Virus record (IMG/VR): IMGVR_UViG_3300043419_000155
Coordinates: 1 to 20,497 of that record
DNA: 20,497 bases
Direction: 5' to 3' (one strand)
Source of the DNA: a virus
The notes beneath the pieces are model-generated. The model made no database searches, had not been told where the DNA came from, and worked only from the letters and a program-made list of their open reading frames with translations. Positions within the stretch are counted from its first letter, which is position 1, and each line of letters starts with the position of its first letter. Below are positions 5,363-16,640 of the stretch, piece after piece. The translations under genes were made by a program, and so were the position numbers.

Positions 5363-5624
5363 AGAGACACATCCTGGTTTGGATGTTGAGGGTTGTTTCG
5401 GATGCAAGGTTGCAGGGGTACAGATTGGGTCTAACTCCACCACCACCAAAGGTGAGGCGGTAGCGGTCATTAACCAGCGTGAAAAGAACTGGTCTAAGGA
5501 TATGCCTGCCTATAAGCGTCTTCGTGCTGAAGGTTTGCAACCTAAGACAATTGATGGTTGCCATGCGGTTGAGCAGTTGGCTACGTCTAAGCATCAAATT
5601 GAAGGCACCCCTGCCCCGTTGTGA
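5340..5624 (+). CDS. Small conserved actinophage protein with GCFGC motif
   Basis: A 94-residue protein. An HPGLDVEGCFGC motif near residues 11-22 places Cys19 and Cys22 as a possible metal-binding or redox pair. Downstream is an AYKRLRAEGLQPKTIDGC stretch. The set HPGLD, GCFGC, AYkRL and qPk.IDG is one I recognise as a recurring small actinophage protein of unknown function. It overlaps the preceding gene by 23 bases. An in-frame TTG at 5352 is an alternative start that would shorten the overlap. The gene ends in GTGA shared with the start of the glycosyltransferase, so the two are probably translationally coupled. No signal peptide or membrane helix is present. Confidence 0.7.
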   Translation: MVITLKHRETHPGLDVEGCFGCKVAGVQIGSNSTTTKGEAVAVINQREKNWSKDMPAYKRLRAEGLQPKTIDGCHAVEQLATSKHQIEGTPAPL

Positions 5625-6706
5625 ACTATCAATCGTGGAGGGGATTTGATGACCCTAAATTGGGTTATGGGTCTATGCTCCAAGGCTTCAAGGATTCTCT
5701 GCCGAAATCGGTGAAGTTAGATAACTCTGCATCTGTTGATGTTCATATGCAGGTTCCTTATGCTTGCAAGGGTTGGCTGGACGGGCAGCATCGTGTTTTG
5801 TTTTCTATGTGGGAAACAGATGTTTTGCCTAATAGTTTCCGTAGATGGCTGGTTCACTTTGACCAGGTAGTTGTTCCTTGCCAGCACAATGTTGAACTGT
5901 TTAGTCAGTTTCATGATGATGTTTCTTACTGCCCGTTGGGGGTGGACCACAAGTTTTGGAAACCGTTAGGTGAACCTAATAACGATGTGTTTCGTTTTCA
6001 TGGTGGTGGGTCTTTGTGGCACCGCAAAGGTCTTGACGTTTTGGTGAAGGCGTTTAACGCTTTGAAACTTCCTGATGCTGAACTGCACATCAAAGCAGCC
6101 CCTCACGCACAAGATGTCCCCACCAAAAAACTAGGTGAAAAAATCTTTCTCAACAGGGAATGGATGACACCTGAAGAACAAAGAACATGGTTTAACCAAG
6201 CCGATTGTTTTGTGGCTGTTTCCCGTGGCGAAGGATTCGGACTGATGCCGTTACAAGCCATCGCTAGTGGCATCCCCACAATCATCTCAGACAGCACAGG
6301 ACAGTCCCAGTTCGCCCATCTCGCCTTCGGGGTAGTTCCATGCACCAAATCCAAAGCAGAGACAACAGGACAATGGGATGAACCAAACCAAAAAGTCCTA
6401 GAAGAACTAATGATGGAGGCATACCGCAACCGTGGAACCATCAGACAAACTGCCATCTCCCGTGTCCCAGAAACCAAAGCGTTCTCCTGGTCAAAAGCCA
6501 CCAGCAAACTTCTATCTCTCATCCCTGAAGGCACCCTCCTTGATAACCCTGAATTTGTCAGACCAGAAATAAAAGTTGAAATCCAGGTTGTCAGAAAAGT
6601 CAACGCCTACATCGGGAACGAGTCTTATAACCTGATACCAGGGGAAACATACGTTGTCCCTGAGAATGTCCATGATGTTTTGTTGGCTTCGGGCGCAGTA
6701 AAATAG
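5621..6706 (+). CDS. GT-B (GT4-like) glycosyltransferase with C-terminal add-on
   Basis: A 361-residue protein with a GTG start overlapping the previous stop (GTGA). The N-terminal half carries a degenerate Rossmann-like region. The C-terminal GT-B domain is clear: WHRKGLDVLVKAF near residue 135, ELHIKAAP, and SRGEGFGLMPLQAIASGIPTI. The EGFGLMPLQ stretch is the nucleotide-sugar-binding E-x7-E motif, but the second Glu is Gln (E204, Q212). This type transfers a sugar from an activated donor to protein, teichoic acid or DNA; the acceptor is unknown. Residues from about 317 form a short extra domain (NLIPGETYVVPENVHDVLLASGAV) resembling small phage virion-associated modules. The first half of the gene is T-rich and the second half A-rich, a sharp switch near base 6080. 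It lies before the collagen-like fibre, a possible substrate. Confidence 0.85.
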   Translation: MNYQSWRGFDDPKLGYGSMLQGFKDSLPKSVKLDNSASVDVHMQVPYACKGWLDGQHRVLFSMWETDVLPNSFRRWLVHFDQVVVPCQHNVELFSQFHDDVSYCPLGVDHKFWKPLGEPNNDVFRFHGGGSLWHRKGLDVLVKAFNALKLPDAELHIKAAPHAQDVPTKKLGEKIFLNREWMTPEEQRTWFNQADCFVAVSRGEGFGLMPLQAIASGIPTIISDSTGQSQFAHLAFGVVPCTKSKAETTGQWDEPNQKVLEELMMEAYRNRGTIRQTAISRVPETKAFSWSKATSKLLSLIPEGTLLDNPEFVRPEIKVEIQVVRKVNAYIGNESYNLIPGETYVVPENVHDVLLASGAVK

Positions 6707-6724: not shown

Positions 6725-8493
<1,769 letters not shown>

Positions 8494-8826: not shown

Positions 8827-9864
8827 ATGAAAATTGCGGTCTATACAATCGCTAAGAATGAAGCCAAGCACGTAGCACTTTGGGCTGAATCCTGCAAGGA
8901 AGCCGACTGTCGGTTCATCCTTGACACAGGCTCAACAGACACCACACTGTACGAAGCGGAGCAAAACAAGGTATCTGCTTTGACTGAGGTGTACGACCCG
9001 TTTAGGTTTGACGAAGCCCGCAATCGTGCGCTCTCCTTGCTCCCCGAAGACATAGACCTGTGCATCTCCCTAGACATGGACGAAGTGCTAACCCCAGGAT
9101 GGCGAGAAGCATTAGAAAACCTTGACCCATCAGTGAACTTTGTGCGCCACAAAGTAGTGACAAGTTTCAACCCTGACGGTTCAGAAGGACAATCATTCAC
9201 CATCGGACGTATCCACGGCAGGCACAGCCACACCTGGAAATACCCAATCCATGAAATCCTCACGCCAGTAGCATTAGAAAACTCTATATATGTCACTGGT
9301 CTAGAAATCCATCATCATCCTGACAACAGCAAACCACGAAGCCAATACCTAGAGATGCTGAAACTGGCAGCCGAAGAAAATCCCAATGACGAACGCAACC
9401 AGTTCTACCTAGCCCGTGAATACTATTTCCACGGACGTTATGCACTAGCCCAACACCATTTCTCACGGCACCTAATCATCTCCCAATGGAAACCAGAACG
9501 AGCCTCATCACATCGCTACATGGCAAAGATGCGACCCGATGCCGCCGAACACCACCTATACAAAGCAGTAGCGGAAGACCCAACACGCCGAGAAAACTGG
9601 GTAGCACTAGCAGACCTATACAGAATCCGTGAAGACTGGACAGCCTGCCGAGCCGCCTGCGAAATGGCGTTCCGAATCAAAACAAAACCAACCGACTACT
9701 TTTGTGAACCCGAAGCATGGGGCTGGCAAATCCATGACTGCATGGCTCTTGCCTGCTACCACCTTGGCGACCACGACGAAGCCTGGCATCACGGTGCCGA
9801 AGCAATCTCCCTCAACCCTGACGATGAAAGGCTGCAAGCCAACCTCACATGGTATCGGCTATGA
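8827..9864 (+). CDS. GT2-like (GT-A) glycosyltransferase with TPR-like C-terminus
   Basis: A 345-residue protein with the strongest ribosome-binding site in the window (AAGGAGG). Residues 1-110 hold the GT-A hallmarks: IAKNEAKHV near residue 8, DTGSTDTT at 33-40, FRFDEARNRAL at 59-69, and DMDE at 83-86 as the metal/nucleotide-sugar-binding D-x-D. The second half is helical, with TPR-like repeats (RNQFYLAREYYFHGRYALAQHHF near 200; NWVALADLYRIREDWTACRAACEMAF near 258; ACYHLGDHDEAWHHGAEAISLNPDD near 312). This GT2-plus-TPR architecture is known for peptide or protein O/S-glycosyltransferases in bacteria. With the GT-B enzyme at 5621 it brackets the Thr-rich fibre, a likely acceptor, though teichoic acid or host targets are possible. 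Codons are strongly A/C-rich at third positions. Confidence 0.85.
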   Translation: MKIAVYTIAKNEAKHVALWAESCKEADCRFILDTGSTDTTLYEAEQNKVSALTEVYDPFRFDEARNRALSLLPEDIDLCISLDMDEVLTPGWREALENLDPSVNFVRHKVVTSFNPDGSEGQSFTIGRIHGRHSHTWKYPIHEILTPVALENSIYVTGLEIHHHPDNSKPRSQYLEMLKLAAEENPNDERNQFYLAREYYFHGRYALAQHHFSRHLIISQWKPERASSHRYMAKMRPDAAEHHLYKAVAEDPTRRENWVALADLYRIREDWTACRAACEMAFRIKTKPTDYFCEPEAWGWQIHDCMALACYHLGDHDEAWHHGAEAISLNPDDERLQANLTWYRL

Positions 9865-11109: not shown

Positions 11110-12975
11110 ATGGCGGTATCCACCTTCACACTGCCGTATTTTGGCACACCACCGTATTTCTCTGGTACAGCCTCATCATCTTTGGTGCCGCACACTTTCC
11201 CTGTCGCCATTGATGGTCGCCCATACATGATTGACCAGAAATCAAATCAGTTCAAACGTGGCTATGAGCAGCGTGTTCGTGATTCACAAGATGGTTCTAC
11301 TTCTCCTGGTGAGGGCGCTATTAACCCTGGTGGTTTGTGGAGGCGTGGTCAAGACTCGTGGCATTATGGTTCGGGTCAACAGTATGCCGACACTGCTGAG
11401 TCTAAGGACTATATGTTCTATAAGTCTAAGGGTATTAACCCTTGGGTGAAGGGTCAGTTGTCGTTGCTTAATGCTACGAAGGTGTCATTATCTTCTTCTG
11501 CTACTTCTCAACATATGGTTGTGCAAGATGGTCGTGTGTATGTTTCTTTAAACGGTGATGTTAAATACACTGCTAACCCGTTTGCGTCTAGCCCTACATG
11601 GACTGACTGCACTGGCGAACCTGGTGGTTCTGTGCAGGCTATGGCTACTGATGGCAACGATATCTACCTTGCTTTTCCTTCTGATGGTGTACGCAAGATT
11701 GATACATCCGCAGCCCCAGGTACTATCAGCGGAACAAAGTTTGTTACTGGAACAAATGATTACTATATGTTGGCTTTTGCAAAAGGTTATATGTTCGGCG
11801 CACACGACAAAAACCTACGACAGATTTCAGGGGCAGGTGCAACAACAGACAGAATTACAATAGATGACCCTGATTGGCGTTGGGTCGGTGTAGCCACAGG
11901 ACAAAACGCTGTGTACGCAGCAGGTTATGCAGGCAAGAAATCCCTTATCTACAAAATCACAATCAAAACAGACGGCACACTTGACCAAGGTGTTGTAGCC
12001 CTTGAACTCCCAACAGGAGAAGTAGTCACAGCAATCTCTGGCTACCTCGGATTCATTCTCATCGGAACAAACCAGGGTGTTCGTTTCTGTAGCACAGACT
12101 CAAACTCAAACCTTAATGCTGGACAACTCATCCCAACAGTAGGACCTGTATACAAGTTCTCCTCTTATGACCGATTCGTTTGGTTCACGTATTCGCACTA
12201 TGACAGCACATCAGGCGGCTTGGGTCGTCTTGACCTATCCGTGTTCACTTCACCTAACACCCCCGCATATGCAACAGACCTGATGTACTCATCAACCAAT
12301 GATGTAACAAATGTTGTTGTATTCGCAGATGCAGTATCAGGTGTGTACAAGCACGTCTTCATGGTTAGTGGCGTAGGTATTGTCGCAGAAGATTCAGCAA
12401 ACCTTGTCGCAACAGGAGAGATTGAAACAGGAACATGGCGTTGGGGTATCCCAGACCGTAAGTTCGTAGCCAAGATAGACACCCGTTCCACCCCACTCGT
12501 AGGTTCCATCACTTCCTACCTGAAACTGGACGACGGGGACTACACGGAAGTAGGAGTATGGGACACAGGCAACGACATTGAAAACTCCTTTGACGGTTCC
12601 AACACACGAGCCATTGAAGCAGACTTCAAGTACGTCCTCACCAGGTCCTCCACTGCCACATCAACAGGACCAACATTCACCCGTTGGATGGCTAGAGCAT
12701 ATGCCGCACCGTTCCGTTCACAAGTATTCGTTGTTCCTGTCCTGCTCCACCAGTCGGTCACTGTCCGTGGCAAAGAGTATTACTACGACATTGAAGAAGA
12801 ACAATCATTTTTTGATGGGCTAATCGGGTCACCTCGTATCATCGCTTTGCAAATGGGTTCGGTTACGCACTCAGTAATTTTGGAAGATTTGCAGTGGGAT
12901 GCGTCAGATTCGCAGGGGAATACATGGCAATTTAACGGGACGCTTGTTGTAACCTTGCGTTCAGTGGAAAACTAG
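11110..12975 (+). CDS. Large beta-rich tail protein, possible tail nozzle
   Basis: A 621-residue protein with no signal peptide. It is mostly beta-strand, with repeated blade-like segments (GRVYVSLNGDVKYT; DGNDIYLAFPSDGVRKID; AFAKGYMFGAHDKNLRQISG; GYLGFILIGTNQGVRFC; SSYDRFVWFTYSHYDS; ASAVSG-like turns), consistent with a beta-propeller core at about residues 140-430. The C-terminal third is another beta domain (SITSYLKLDDGDYTEVGVWD; VRGKEYYYDIEEEQSFFDGL). Podovirus tail nozzles such as T7 gp12 contain beta-propellers and follow the adaptor gene, as here; this protein is shorter than T7 gp12. A host-recognising or minor tail protein is the alternative. The first part (to about 11700) is T-rich and the rest A/C-rich. 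Confidence 0.6.
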   Translation: MAVSTFTLPYFGTPPYFSGTASSSLVPHTFPVAIDGRPYMIDQKSNQFKRGYEQRVRDSQDGSTSPGEGAINPGGLWRRGQDSWHYGSGQQYADTAESKDYMFYKSKGINPWVKGQLSLLNATKVSLSSSATSQHMVVQDGRVYVSLNGDVKYTANPFASSPTWTDCTGEPGGSVQAMATDGNDIYLAFPSDGVRKIDTSAAPGTISGTKFVTGTNDYYMLAFAKGYMFGAHDKNLRQISGAGATTDRITIDDPDWRWVGVATGQNAVYAAGYAGKKSLIYKITIKTDGTLDQGVVALELPTGEVVTAISGYLGFILIGTNQGVRFCSTDSNSNLNAGQLIPTVGPVYKFSSYDRFVWFTYSHYDSTSGGLGRLDLSVFTSPNTPAYATDLMYSSTNDVTNVVVFADAVSGVYKHVFMVSGVGIVAEDSANLVATGEIETGTWRWGIPDRKFVAKIDTRSTPLVGSITSYLKLDDGDYTEVGVWDTGNDIENSFDGSNTRAIEADFKYVLTRSSTATSTGPTFTRWMARAYAAPFRSQVFVVPVLLHQSVTVRGKEYYYDIEEEQSFFDGLIGSPRIIALQMGSVTHSVILEDLQWDASDSQGNTWQFNGTLVVTLRSVEN

Positions 12976-12984
12976 GAGATAACA

Positions 12985-13998
12985 ATGGCTTATTCACGCA
13001 GGTCTTATAAAGGTGCAGCAGTAATCAATGCTTTGGGTGGTAGCGGTCTTGCCGCTAACGCTACAAGCATCACTCTTGCAGCATCAATGTCTGGATGGTC
13101 CACAAGTGGGACACCTTTCTTTGTTGTTGTGGACCCTGGCACAGCCAAAGAAGAAAAGATTTGTGTTATCTATGCTTCTACCACCACGTTGACTGTGGTT
13201 GACCCTGCTGTTACTTCAGCCTGGTCAGCATCAGTTAATGGTCGTGGTGTTGACGACACAACAGACAGAGCGCATGATGTTGGCGCAACTATCTACCCAG
13301 TGTTTACCGCTACAGAAGCGAACCAGGCTAATGAACTTGTATCCAAGTACACCACTAATGGTGACATTGTTGTGCATGGGACAACTGGTCCTAAGACAAT
13401 CTCTACTGGCGGGTCAGGCAATAACAATAAAGTCTTGATGGCTGACTCCAGCGTTACTGATGGTGGTGTCAAGTGGTCTTCTATTGACACAGCAAACATT
13501 GCTGATTCTGCTATTACGTCAGGCAAGATTGCTGATGGAACTATTGTTAATGCTGACATCAACGCCTCAGCCGCTATCGCTCTGAGCAAGTTGGCTACAG
13601 GTGCGCTTCCAACCAGCATCACTATTGCTTCTGCAAACCTTGTTGATGGCACAATCGTTGAGGCTGACATCGCAGACTCGGCTGTCACATCAGCCAAGAT
13701 TGCAGATGGAACAATTGTTAACGCCGATATCAATGCTTCGGCTGCTATCGCTCTATCCAAGTTGGCTACTGGTGCATTGCCTACCGATATCACGGTGGCT
13801 TCAGCAAACATTGTTAATGGCACAATCGTGGCAGAGGACCTTGCCAGCAACGCTGTTACCACAGCAAAGATACTTGACGCTAACGTCACAAATGCCAAAC
13901 TAAACAATGGTTCATCGGGCGATATCCCTCTCGTCACTGTTTCTACTTCTGACCCTTCAGGTGGCAAGAACGGTGATGTCTGGGTCAAGGTGGTCTAA
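12985..13998 (+). CDS. Tail fibre-like protein with 57-residue repeats
   Basis: A 337-residue protein with a good AGGAG ribosome-binding site. Residues 1-110 hold a beta module (FFVVVDPGTAKEEKICVIY to RGVDDTTDRAHDVGATIYPV) similar in plan to one in the adaptor at 10219. Residues 112-170 are a linker. Two near-identical 57-residue repeats start at residues 172 and 229, with a partial third at 286, each with ADGTIVNADINASAAIALSKLATGALPT-like parts. Such DG-T-I-V-ADI repeats are typical of trimeric beta-helical fibre shafts and structural repeats in phage tails and virus-like surface proteins. The C-terminus (GDIPLVTVSTSDPSGGKNGDVWVKVV) looks like a small end domain and overlaps the next gene by TAATG. 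Role: receptor-proximal fibre or side tail component. Confidence 0.7.
   Translation: MAYSRRSYKGAAVINALGGSGLAANATSITLAASMSGWSTSGTPFFVVVDPGTAKEEKICVIYASTTTLTVVDPAVTSAWSASVNGRGVDDTTDRAHDVGATIYPVFTATEANQANELVSKYTTNGDIVVHGTTGPKTISTGGSGNNNKVLMADSSVTDGGVKWSSIDTANIADSAITSGKIADGTIVNADINASAAIALSKLATGALPTSITIASANLVDGTIVEADIADSAVTSAKIADGTIVNADINASAAIALSKLATGALPTDITVASANIVNGTIVAEDLASNAVTTAKILDANVTNAKLNNGSSGDIPLVTVSTSDPSGGKNGDVWVKVV
13498..13902 (+). repeat. Direct 171-base (57-codon) repeats in the fibre gene
   Basis: Copy 1 is 13498-13668, copy 2 13669-13839, and a partial copy 3 begins at 13840. The period is exact (171 bases), with many synonymous changes, so the copies are old or under purifying selection at the protein level rather than a fresh duplication. 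Confidence 0.85.
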
Positions 13999-14480: not shown

Positions 14481-14750
14481 ATGTTGTCATTAAAGATTGC
14501 CAAGGACGTGGCAAGCCGCATCATTGCGCTGTTCATCATGTCCAGCCTTACAATCATCACAGGCTCTAGCATCATCAACTCGGTTGGCACAGGCGTGTCC
14601 ATCCCACTGTGGTACTCAGCAGCCCTCGGTGGATTCCACGCAATCGCAGACGTTCTCGTCAACCTTGCTAAGGCATCACTTGACGGCAAGTTAGAAGCAC
14701 ATGAAGTGGACGCAGCCTTCGGTGTGAAGCGTGACAACCAGGCTCAGTAG
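14481..14750 (+). CDS. Holin candidate
   Basis: An 89-residue protein with two hydrophobic segments: IIALFIMSSLTIITGSSII at about residues 14-32, and IPLWYSAALGGFHAIADVLVNL at about 41-62. A charged C-terminal tail follows (DGKLEAHEVDAAFGVKRDN). The ribosome-binding site TAGGAG lies eight bases before the ATG, which decides the start. Small size, two membrane helices, charged tail and position at the head of the lysis cassette (secreted protein, then endolysin) fit a holin, which makes lesions in the membrane to release or activate the endolysin. The last 20 bases overlap the next gene. A structural membrane protein is the alternative. Confidence 0.6.
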   Translation: MLSLKIAKDVASRIIALFIMSSLTIITGSSIINSVGTGVSIPLWYSAALGGFHAIADVLVNLAKASLDGKLEAHEVDAAFGVKRDNQAQ

Positions 14751-15786
14751 AGCCGCACTACTTTTCATAGGGGTTATCGGTGCTGCTTTACTGCTGTCAT
14801 CCAGTGCTAAAGCAGAAAACGTAATCGTCACCCAACCAACAGACTTCTGGTTTGAATACAGCGAGCCGACACGTTTTGTTGCACAAACCTACATGGTTGC
14901 AAACCATCCGTCCGACCCGCAACTCTGGCTGTACAACGAACAAGACACTTTGCTTATCAGCAACGATGACTACAACGGGTTGCAATCGTACATTTCTATA
15001 GACGTAGAACCTGGTCGCTACCGTCTACGTGCAGGAACCTGCTGTTGGCAACCTAACGTGTGGCGTGACGGGCAAACATGGAACATTGACTACGAACTGG
15101 GGTTCGGTCAGGGTTCTATTACCATCCCCGAATCGTCGCCCACAACAACGCCCCAACCAGCAACAACCACGGACCCGCCTCATACAACCACGACATCTAC
15201 TGTCCCCCCGACAACAACAACAGAACAAACAACGACCACCACAGAAGCGACAACAACAACCACAACGACAACGGTTGAGCCAACAACAACTTCCACTTCC
15301 GTTGCGCCTTCCACCACTGCAATTCAAACCACCACATCTACTGCTGTTCCTTCCACCACGACCACGACAACAAGCACACTGCCGCCGACAACAACACTGC
15401 CGTCCATTCCAGAATCCACATCAACATCCACCCTTCCAGTGACTACCTCAACTTTACCACCCGTCATCACCCCTGAACAAGCAGAAGAAGTAGCACTCAA
15501 TCCTGAGGTATTGGCAACCATTACAGAAGAAGAAGCAACCCAGGTCTTTGAAGCCCTAGTTGTGGATGACTTGTCTGATGCCCAGTTAGAACAACTCGTT
15601 GAATCCGTACAGGCAGCCCCGACAGAGGTGCGTAAAGCCTTTGAGAAAACCATCAATATCTTCGGTGGCGGTCTAGACACCTACGTCCCGACTGGTTCCA
15701 CTGTCCCCGTGTCCACCCGTAGAACCCTTGTAACCATTGGCGCTATCGCTATGGCAGCGTCAGCCATACCAATTAGAAAGTGGTAG
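14731..15786 (+). CDS. Secreted Thr-rich (mucin-like) surface protein in the lysis block
   Basis: A 351-residue protein with a GTG start that overlaps the holin by 20 bases. Residues 1-28 are a Sec signal peptide: basic head, hydrophobic core LLFIGVIGAALLL, and AKA before the likely cut site. Residues 29-134 form a beta-rich domain with a Cys-Cys pair (GTCCWQP) and a pattern resembling bacterial pre-peptidase C-type domains. Residues 136-246 are about half Thr with Pro/Ser, a mucin-like stalk. Residues 248-315 are helical (PEQAEEVALNPEVLATITEEE). The C-terminus has TGSTVPVSTRRTLVTIGAIA and a short membrane anchor. I recall very similar helical and RRTL endings in actinobacterial surface proteins. 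It was probably acquired from the host; roles such as cell-surface masking, superinfection exclusion or lysis help are inference. Confidence 0.8.
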   Translation: MTTRLSRAALLFIGVIGAALLLSSSAKAENVIVTQPTDFWFEYSEPTRFVAQTYMVANHPSDPQLWLYNEQDTLLISNDDYNGLQSYISIDVEPGRYRLRAGTCCWQPNVWRDGQTWNIDYELGFGQGSITIPESSPTTTPQPATTTDPPHTTTTSTVPPTTTTEQTTTTTEATTTTTTTTVEPTTTSTSVAPSTTAIQTTTSTAVPSTTTTTTSTLPPTTTLPSIPESTSTSTLPVTTSTLPPVITPEQAEEVALNPEVLATITEEEATQVFEALVVDDLSDAQLEQLVESVQAAPTEVRKAFEKTINIFGGGLDTYVPTGSTVPVSTRRTLVTIGAIAMAASAIPIRKW

Positions 15787-15796: not shown

Positions 15797-15967
15797 ATGA
15801 GTAAGTATTTCAGTGCCATTGTTTCGCTACTACTCTGGGCTTCAGGCACAGGGCTAGTCCTCATCACCCTCTCAGGACCCACACTGGCTAAGGCTATCTA
15901 CATCAGCGTAGCCACCCTGTTCGTTCTTGTACTAGCAATCATCTTCAACGTAGGAGTTGACGAATAA
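15797..15967 (+). CDS. Small two-helix membrane protein (possible second holin/antiholin)
   Basis: A 56-residue protein if the ATG at 15797 is used. The same frame is open upstream to 15737, but that would overlap the Thr-rich gene by 50 bases and add an unlikely basic stretch. Two hydrophobic helices are visible: AIVSLLLWASGTGLVLITL (about 7-25) and AIYISVATLFVLVLAII (about 32-48), then NVGVDE. The N-terminus is MSKYF with one Lys. Size and topology fit a class II holin or an antiholin, and it lies between the secreted protein and the endolysin. There is no ribosome-binding site before the ATG; an extended -10 box lies seven bases upstream. Confidence 0.6.
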   Translation: MSKYFSAIVSLLLWASGTGLVLITLSGPTLAKAIYISVATLFVLVLAIIFNVGVDE

Positions 15968-16070: not shown

Positions 16071-16640
16071 ATGTCAAAGACACTCCCATATAAAAAGTTA
16101 GTAGTACCAGCAGGCTTGAAAGGTCAAATCAATGGTCGCCTTGACAAGAGTCTTCTCGTTGGTGTGAAGACTGGTGGCAAGATGTACAAGGAAGCAGCCG
16201 AAGCGTTTGACAAAATGTATGACGCAGCAATGGCGGCAGGTGTACACCTTCGCAACATTGGTGACTACCGTTCCTATGACGGACAGTTCGCAATGTTCAT
16301 GGACCGCTATGAAGTAGCCAAGCCGAACGACCCACGCCTCGGCAAGAAGAACACGGTGACCCGTAAGTTTGACGGCAAGACCTGGATTCTGAAGAAGGGT
16401 AAGGCACCATCTGCTGCACCAGACCCAACAGGTAAGTCAGGTTCCAACCACGGGTGGGGTCTTGCCATTGACCTGGCTGTTGAAGGCAAGGGTGGCAACC
16501 TTGTCGGTATGGCATCGGCTAAGAAGGGCTTTAAGTGGATGTGTGAGAACGCACCAACCTTCGGGTTCTACCTTCAGGGAGACAACATCAAGTCGCCAGA
16601 GTTTGAACACTGGCATTGGCAGTGGTGTGACGGGAAGTGA
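16071..16640 (+). CDS. M15 (VanY-like) peptidase, endolysin
   Basis: A 189-residue soluble protein without a signal peptide; GGAAG lies upstream of the ATG. The zinc-peptidase signature is complete: SNHGWGLAID with H127 and D134 as zinc ligands, and E179 with H182 in EFEHWHW as catalytic Glu and third ligand. These belong to the M15 D,D-/L,D-carboxypeptidase or endopeptidase (VanY/Ply) group. The enzyme would cleave the peptide part of the cell wall, so this is the likely endolysin; no separate wall-binding domain is seen. It has no signal peptide, so holin-made lesions are needed for access to the wall. The stop overlaps the GTG of the next gene, a membrane protein, completing the lysis cassette. 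Confidence 0.85.
   Translation: MSKTLPYKKLVVPAGLKGQINGRLDKSLLVGVKTGGKMYKEAAEAFDKMYDAAMAAGVHLRNIGDYRSYDGQFAMFMDRYEVAKPNDPRLGKKNTVTRKFDGKTWILKKGKAPSAAPDPTGKSGSNHGWGLAIDLAVEGKGGNLVGMASAKKGFKWMCENAPTFGFYLQGDNIKSPEFEHWHWQWCDGK

Follow-up and report, generated by a model that had tools for sequence, protein, structure and literature searches.

Architecture of the locus

The window, that is, the whole stretch of 20,497 nucleotides of viral DNA analyzed in this work (IMG/VR record IMGVR_UViG_3300043419_000155), contains a gene for a predicted stalked surface protein, which is flanked by a holin-like gene and, farther downstream, by a VanY-type (M15) endolysin candidate (Table 1). An earlier sequence-only reading had described this protein as consisting of a signal peptide, a beta-type head with a Cys-Cys pair, a stalk that is about half Thr, a helical domain, and a C-terminal anchor, and had noted its position between the holin candidate, with which its gene overlaps, and the endolysin; all of these elements were recovered. 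The stalk comprises 54 Thr among its 110 residues, together with 17 Pro and 12 Ser, and a tandem repeat was called within it (positions 15211-15264). In the AlphaFold2 model, the C-terminal part of the protein forms five helices that are followed by a sixth at the membrane anchor, with a pLDDT of 85.1 for the helical domain overall and of about 55-62 in the transmembrane (TM) part. Residues 318-351 hold the helical-domain motif, the C-terminal TM segment, and the basic tail. Because full-length relatives of 69-70% identity retain the architecture and the neighbors unchanged, the reading frame is not a chance ORF.

Table 1. Features of the stalk-protein locus in the window
Feature	Position	Strand	Basis or remark
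Holin-like gene, 89 aa	14481..14750	+	20-nt overlap with stalk gene; position varies in relatives
Stalk protein gene, 351 aa	14731..15786	+	Whole ORF, GTG start, stop included
Signal peptide, residues 1-28	14731..14814	+	Likely cleavage between AKA and EN, read by eye
Head domain, residues 29-137 as modeled, PPC/collagen-binding-domain-type beta-sandwich	14815..15141	+	AlphaFold2, Foldseek
Thr-rich stalk, residues 137-246	15139..15468	+	Composition
Conserved helical domain, ending in juxtamembrane block	15466..15729	+	Alignment, model
YVPxGSxxPVxxRRxL, residues 318-333	15682-15729	+	Near-invariant juxtamembrane block
C-terminal TM helix and basic tail RKW	15724..15783	+	Model; tail charge in family
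Two-TM partner protein, 56 aa, phrog_29041	15797..15967	+	Found by eye; PHROG E 5e-9
VanY-type (M15) endolysin candidate	16071..16640	+	PF02557, E 1.4e-17

The stalk protein has the tripartite layout of sortase substrates, yet its motif reads VPTGS...PVxxRR and it retains a partner in the membrane; no LPXTG sorting motif precedes its TM segment and basic tail. A lipobox Cys is likewise absent from the end of its signal peptide. With regard to a possible spanin, the protein is without a lipobox, and the host envelope is probably that of a monoderm actinobacterium. The gene upstream was assigned to the "nuclease" family phrog_26427 (E 3.7e-18), which is an unlikely function for a protein of 89 aa with two hydrophobic segments, and this family is probably mislabeled. 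A promoter scan gave results no better than chance.

The stalk gene is paired with a two-TM gene

The sequence-only reading had overlooked a small gene between the stalk and endolysin genes, whose ATG lies 10 nt past the stop of the stalk gene. It encodes a two-TM protein with the conserved block GTGxVLITLSGxT that defines membership of this family. In a profile search, the two-TM gene was adjacent to the stalk gene in 217 of the 220 testable loci, namely, those in which the stalk gene is followed by enough DNA. In two further loci, L149 and L036 (phage DSL-LC01), both proteins are fused, and L174 is the sole case of separation, with the two-TM gene about 1.1 kb downstream. The profile search by itself accounted for 218 of the 220 as adjacent or fused, L149 and L174 being the two that it left over. 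The reverse search, for which 123 loci were fetched with the two-TM protein as bait, found a stalk C-domain next to all 119 testable two-TM genes, the remaining four lying at a contig end. The pairing of both genes is obligate.

The fusions consist of the stalk protein, its first TM, an acidic linker, and the two-TM protein. Among 151 distinct pairs, the tail of the stalk protein always has a net charge of +2 to +4, and that of the two-TM protein is acidic in 115. Conservation is strongest in the GTGxVLITLSGxT block and in the block just before the TM of the stalk protein. If the topology can be read from the fusions, the two blocks lie on the outer side of the membrane, and the simplest reading is that the stalk protein docks directly on the two-TM protein there; the membrane base would then be made of three helices from two proteins. 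A mirror-tree analysis (0.71 for C-domain and two-TM protein versus 0.65 for C-domain and holin) was set aside as evidence, since linkage confounds it.

In its size and its two TM segments, the two-TM protein fits a holin, and phrog_29041 carries no function. One conceivable role of the pair is that of a surface sensor, in which the head, on binding a ligand or virion, would signal by way of the docking site next to the membrane to the two-TM protein, and the latter, as holin or antiholin, would time lysis. Such a relay would fit the natural fusions that unite head, stalk, helical domain, and two-TM protein in one chain, the conserved blocks at the membrane face, and the adjacent holin and endolysin genes. 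However, the loci usually encode a holin-like protein as well, lesion formation by the two-TM protein is only putative, and a long flexible stalk would be a poor transmitter of signals, so that we consider this role improbable.

The module is widespread in viruses

Searches of IMG/VR with the full stalk protein matched 34 loci, whereas the C-domain had at least 241 and the two-TM family at least 388 matches, and hundreds of viral contigs carry a member of the helical-domain family. The C-domain is present in 222 fetched viral or phage loci, which are metagenome contigs, some of them overlapping or redundant, and several of the counts given here take in near-copies. The 160 full-length copies all possess an N-terminal hydrophobic segment, a head, a Thr/Pro-rich stalk of 106-504 residues, the helical domain, and a C-terminal TM.

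A single phage in GenBank matched, and only in the C-domain. This is Actinomycetia phage DSL-LC01 (OQ999401.1), whose protein WJZ48438.1 shares the C-terminal helical domain (42% identity) and Thr-rich stalks with the window protein. It has 944 aa, carries several beta-domain heads on several stalks, ends in a fused two-TM protein, is annotated merely as hypothetical, and, unlike the window gene, is encoded far from an endolysin. DSL-LC01 was assembled from a lake metagenome and has a predicted actinobacterial host (PMC10611076). The GenBank matches of the window's structural protein at 11110-12975 comprised 31 records, all from Streptomyces phages apart from two unassigned phages, with about 28% identity among the matches listed. 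Taking the predicted host of DSL-LC01 and these matches together, we infer an actinobacterial host, and the carriers of the module are probably many uncultured phages of water-dwelling actinobacteria.

The stalk protein matched no Pfam, NCBIfam, PHROG, or PADLOC family, and neither it nor the two-TM protein was matched by PADLOC defense systems; for a module this common, the only family in these libraries is the function-less PHROG of the two-TM part. No PDB relative or convincing fold match was found for the helical C-domain, and profile matches of this domain in the PDB (protein A and others) were dismissed as helix-composition noise. Searches of the open-licence literature on stalked phage proteins, lectins, and exclusion in actinophages yielded no account of such a protein.

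The earlier suggestion that the C-terminal part is of host origin was not borne out. The juxtamembrane motif was turned into a degenerate DNA pattern of 47 bases. This pattern, which recovers 106 of the 107 loci found by homology and matches at least 120 viral stretches, hit a single stretch, without the C-domain, in 84,980 bacterial and archaeal species genomes (one per species). Neither a combined pattern and tblastn scan of the same genomes nor a scan of plasmids revealed a C-domain. At the sensitivity of this search, the module is restricted to viruses. The near-absence of the pattern from species genomes indicates that host genomes do not commonly encode the C-domain, motif-less remote relatives aside, and that the phages are not seen there as prophages; host derivation of the C-domain is not supported. 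That the protein is a host surface protein taken up by phages and without a particular role in them, as the style of its stalk and the occurrence of its head folds (PPC, PA14, and fn3) in bacteria might suggest, is very improbable in view of this distribution and of the strict pairing across very diverged phages.

Head domains differ in type and are exchanged

The head of the window protein was modeled as a domain of eight strands (mean pLDDT 89.9). Its predicted fold is closest to the PPC/clostridial collagen-binding-domain type, with a Foldseek E value of 4.5e-4 for 5sv5 and VIA Z scores of 9.8 for 1nqj (rmsd 2.0 A over 83 residues) and 9.0 for 5sv5 (rmsd 2.0 A over 85). Since the N-terminal domain of the DeCLIC channel scored alike (Z 10.6), this comparison identifies the fold of the head, not its ligand. 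The identity to bacterial PPC and collagen-binding domains is about 15%, and the window head differs from them in having its own invariant Cys-Cys pair. Its score against NF038127 (the NCBIfam DVUA0089 family; 18.7 bits, E 0.0019) is below the cutoff of 29; it had no Pfam match, including the SUEL lectin family (PF02140), and a PDB sequence search with the head profile returned nothing. No head domains were found in other ORFs of the same loci. The vicinal Cys-Cys is invariant in 36 PPC-type heads and also occurs in an unrelated third head type (L019, L177); it is possibly a vicinal disulfide at a binding site.

Other members of the family carry different heads, whose types were set by clustering. 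The galactose/rhamnose lectin domain SUEL scored above the Pfam cutoff in L149 and L324, either as the head or as an extra domain, and PDB relatives of this domain are a rhamnose-binding lectin (5h4s; E 1.9e-14) and, for the L324 head, the surface adhesin RemA (E 2.4e-13). Further heads are PA14-like (subthreshold, E 7.6e-4), fn3-like (subthreshold), or of the unassigned third type. The heads of L128 and L111 comprise about 470-570 residues and look, from their sequence, like a right-handed beta-helix joined to an fn3 domain. Glycan binding by the SUEL-headed members is well supported by these sequence matches, and a glycan may also be the ligand of the window head.

In bacterial polymorphic adhesins and other stalked surface proteins, too, the stalk and anchor are conserved and the head varies, but the module described here is viral, possesses a two-TM partner, and is without LPXTG. 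An adhesive function has been weighed as well: the displayed lectin might attach infected cells, or their virion-bearing debris, to particles or to cells not yet infected, which would bring new hosts to the burst. The lengths of the stalks and the lectin heads would suit contact in trans, and RemA is itself an adhesin; the benefit to free virions in dilute plankton would be small unless expression were early, and we regard this function as doubtful, if somewhat less so than that of a sensor.

Heads are swapped at the stalk boundary. On the C-domain tree, the starred branches require at least 12 changes for the PA14 heads, and there are three sets of identical C-domains that bear different heads. 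Ten locus pairs, such as L195/L211 and L068/L069, were chosen for their similar C-domains and mostly different head labels; high identity (83-98%) typically starts in the stalk and continues downstream, while the heads are unalignable. L195 and L211, for example, are 98% identical from the stalk onward. This exchangeability had escaped the sequence-only reading, and such frequent swapping of the knob suggests a viral means of dealing with the sugars on the host surface.

The stalk/two-TM pair also diverges faster than the flanking lysis genes. Between the window and L002, identity is 76% for the head, 73% for the stalk, 85% for the C-domain, and 71% for the two-TM protein, as against 97% for the holin, 98% for the endolysin, and 95% for YqaJ; one tail gene is 74% and another 97% identical. 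The type of head is weakly related to the similarity of the fiber encoded just upstream (Spearman 0.27, p 0.06, pairs not independent), and L101 and L104 have near-identical modules beside different fibers. Both observations speak against a strict match between head and the phage's own receptor, the weak coupling calls for caution against a simple mask of that receptor, and the true receptor-binding gene may lie elsewhere, for example, in the collagen/collar gene at 7066-8493.

Genomic context and possible function

For 166 loci, 3 kb of downstream sequence was available. In 133 of them, an endolysin from either of two M15 families lies no more than 4.5 kb downstream; 24 continue into terminase and portal genes and have no such endolysin, and in eight a collagen-like fiber region follows, with the fiber or its upstream gene next. 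In relatives, the endolysin is replaced by another M15 family or is absent nearby. A lysis region is thus the usual but not the necessary setting of the module, with holin/terminase genes or a collagen-like fiber following in other loci, so that the lysis-cassette setting proposed earlier holds as a common arrangement and fails as an invariant one. The proposal of a secreted, C-terminally anchored surface protein in a late or lysis region is supported.

The stalk gene follows tail and fiber genes, with a divergence rate similar to that of some of them, and the eight loci with a collagen-like fiber or its upstream gene next might also be taken to indicate a fiber or decoration protein of the virion. 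The family has, however, a signal peptide, a C-terminal TM, a basic tail, and an obligate two-TM partner, and it matches no structural PHROG or Pfam family; its relatives are neither annotated nor recognized as tail components, and a virion role is very unlikely.

The position in the lysis region equally suits a lysis aid, in which the lectin head on envelope glycans, together with the two-TM protein, would disrupt the outer envelope or help the cell to burst after endolysin action. A possible precedent is LysZ of the Corynebacterium phages CL31 and Cog, a lysis-cassette protein of 177 aa with one TM and N-in/C-out topology (PMC13056207). LysZ is proposed to target lipid-anchored glycans; it thus resembles the window protein as a one-TM lysis-cassette protein of actinobacterial phages with a proposed action on envelope glycans outside the membrane. 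No lectin head or long stalk is described for LysZ, and the window protein, with 351 aa, a signal peptide, and a C-terminal TM, has the opposite topology. A lysis aid would also fit the usually adjacent holin-like gene and the holin-like size and topology of the two-TM partner, but the pair stays intact where the endolysin family differs or where terminase genes or a collagen fiber follow, and its faster divergence than holin and endolysin and its swapped heads would be odd for a core lysis part. By virtue of its position and of the proposed action of LysZ on envelope glycans, the lysis aid is ranked a close second, although we consider it unlikely on balance.

Blocking of phage adsorption is ranked first because the heads swap and diverge like surface-interaction parts, and the adjacent lysis genes do not. 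The signal peptide would export the large subunit, and the C-terminal helix would anchor it in the host plasma membrane, docked on its dedicated two-TM subunit. Late in infection, the Thr-rich stalk would cross the cell wall and present a glycan-binding head on the outside of the infected cell. The stalk is probably extended; at about 0.3 nm per residue, 110 residues would span some 30 nm. It is probably O-mannosylated by the host, and O-mannosylation of Thr stretches is plausible in actinobacteria. The heads would bind cell-surface glycans that serve phages as receptors and in this way block the adsorption of competing virions and stop progeny from readsorbing to spent cells and debris.

That the pair forms a surface-displayed, two-part binding module is likely. 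That its purpose is to block adsorption via surface glycans is a tentative proposal, and the whole reading, a viral two-component lectin on a stalk that is displayed on infected cells, binds glycans, and blocks adsorption, falls a little short of an even chance. The masking, superinfection exclusion, and envelope disruption suggested earlier are all still compatible with the data, with the sugar-binding heads appearing to favor the surface roles. A new class of self-contained viral surface machine, present in hundreds of phages of uncultured actinobacteria and with a cartridge-like head and a two-TM base that links glycan or virion recognition to exclusion or lysis timing, seems rather unlikely.

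Small phage-made envelope lipoproteins that confer superinfection exclusion by blocking adsorption or DNA entry include Llp of T5, Cor of phi80 and T1, and Ltp of TP-J34. The window protein differs from these in being large, stalked, and TM anchored, in its interchangeable heads and dedicated partner, and in being without a lipobox Cys. If adsorption blocking is true, actinophages would have in the module a widespread means of exclusion, and its binding specificity, readable from the head, could help to assign phages to particular surface glycans of bacteria that have not been cultured. If the lysis aid is true, it would be a counterpart of spanins and LysZ in hosts whose walls lack an outer membrane. 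In both cases, the stalk/two-TM pair offers a simple two-gene test system.

Other features of the window

The collagen-like fiber gene with a Collar domain (7066-8493) is flanked by two glycosyltransferase-like genes. That at 5621-6706 belongs to the group-1 glycosyltransferases (PF13692, E 2.2e-12), and that at 8827-9864 has the look of a GT2-type enzyme by eye, its C-terminal TPRs being the confirmed part. Both may glycosylate the fiber and, less likely, the Thr stalk. The small gene upstream of the fiber (6725-7063) has a weak CCL2 lectin-like match (E 0.0036), and genes of its type adjoin the stalk/two-TM pair in some loci (L096:8494-8836 and L052:8491-8830). The fiber-like gene at 12985-13998 contains an imperfect tandem duplication of 171 bp (13519-13829; 1.8 copies, 80% match).
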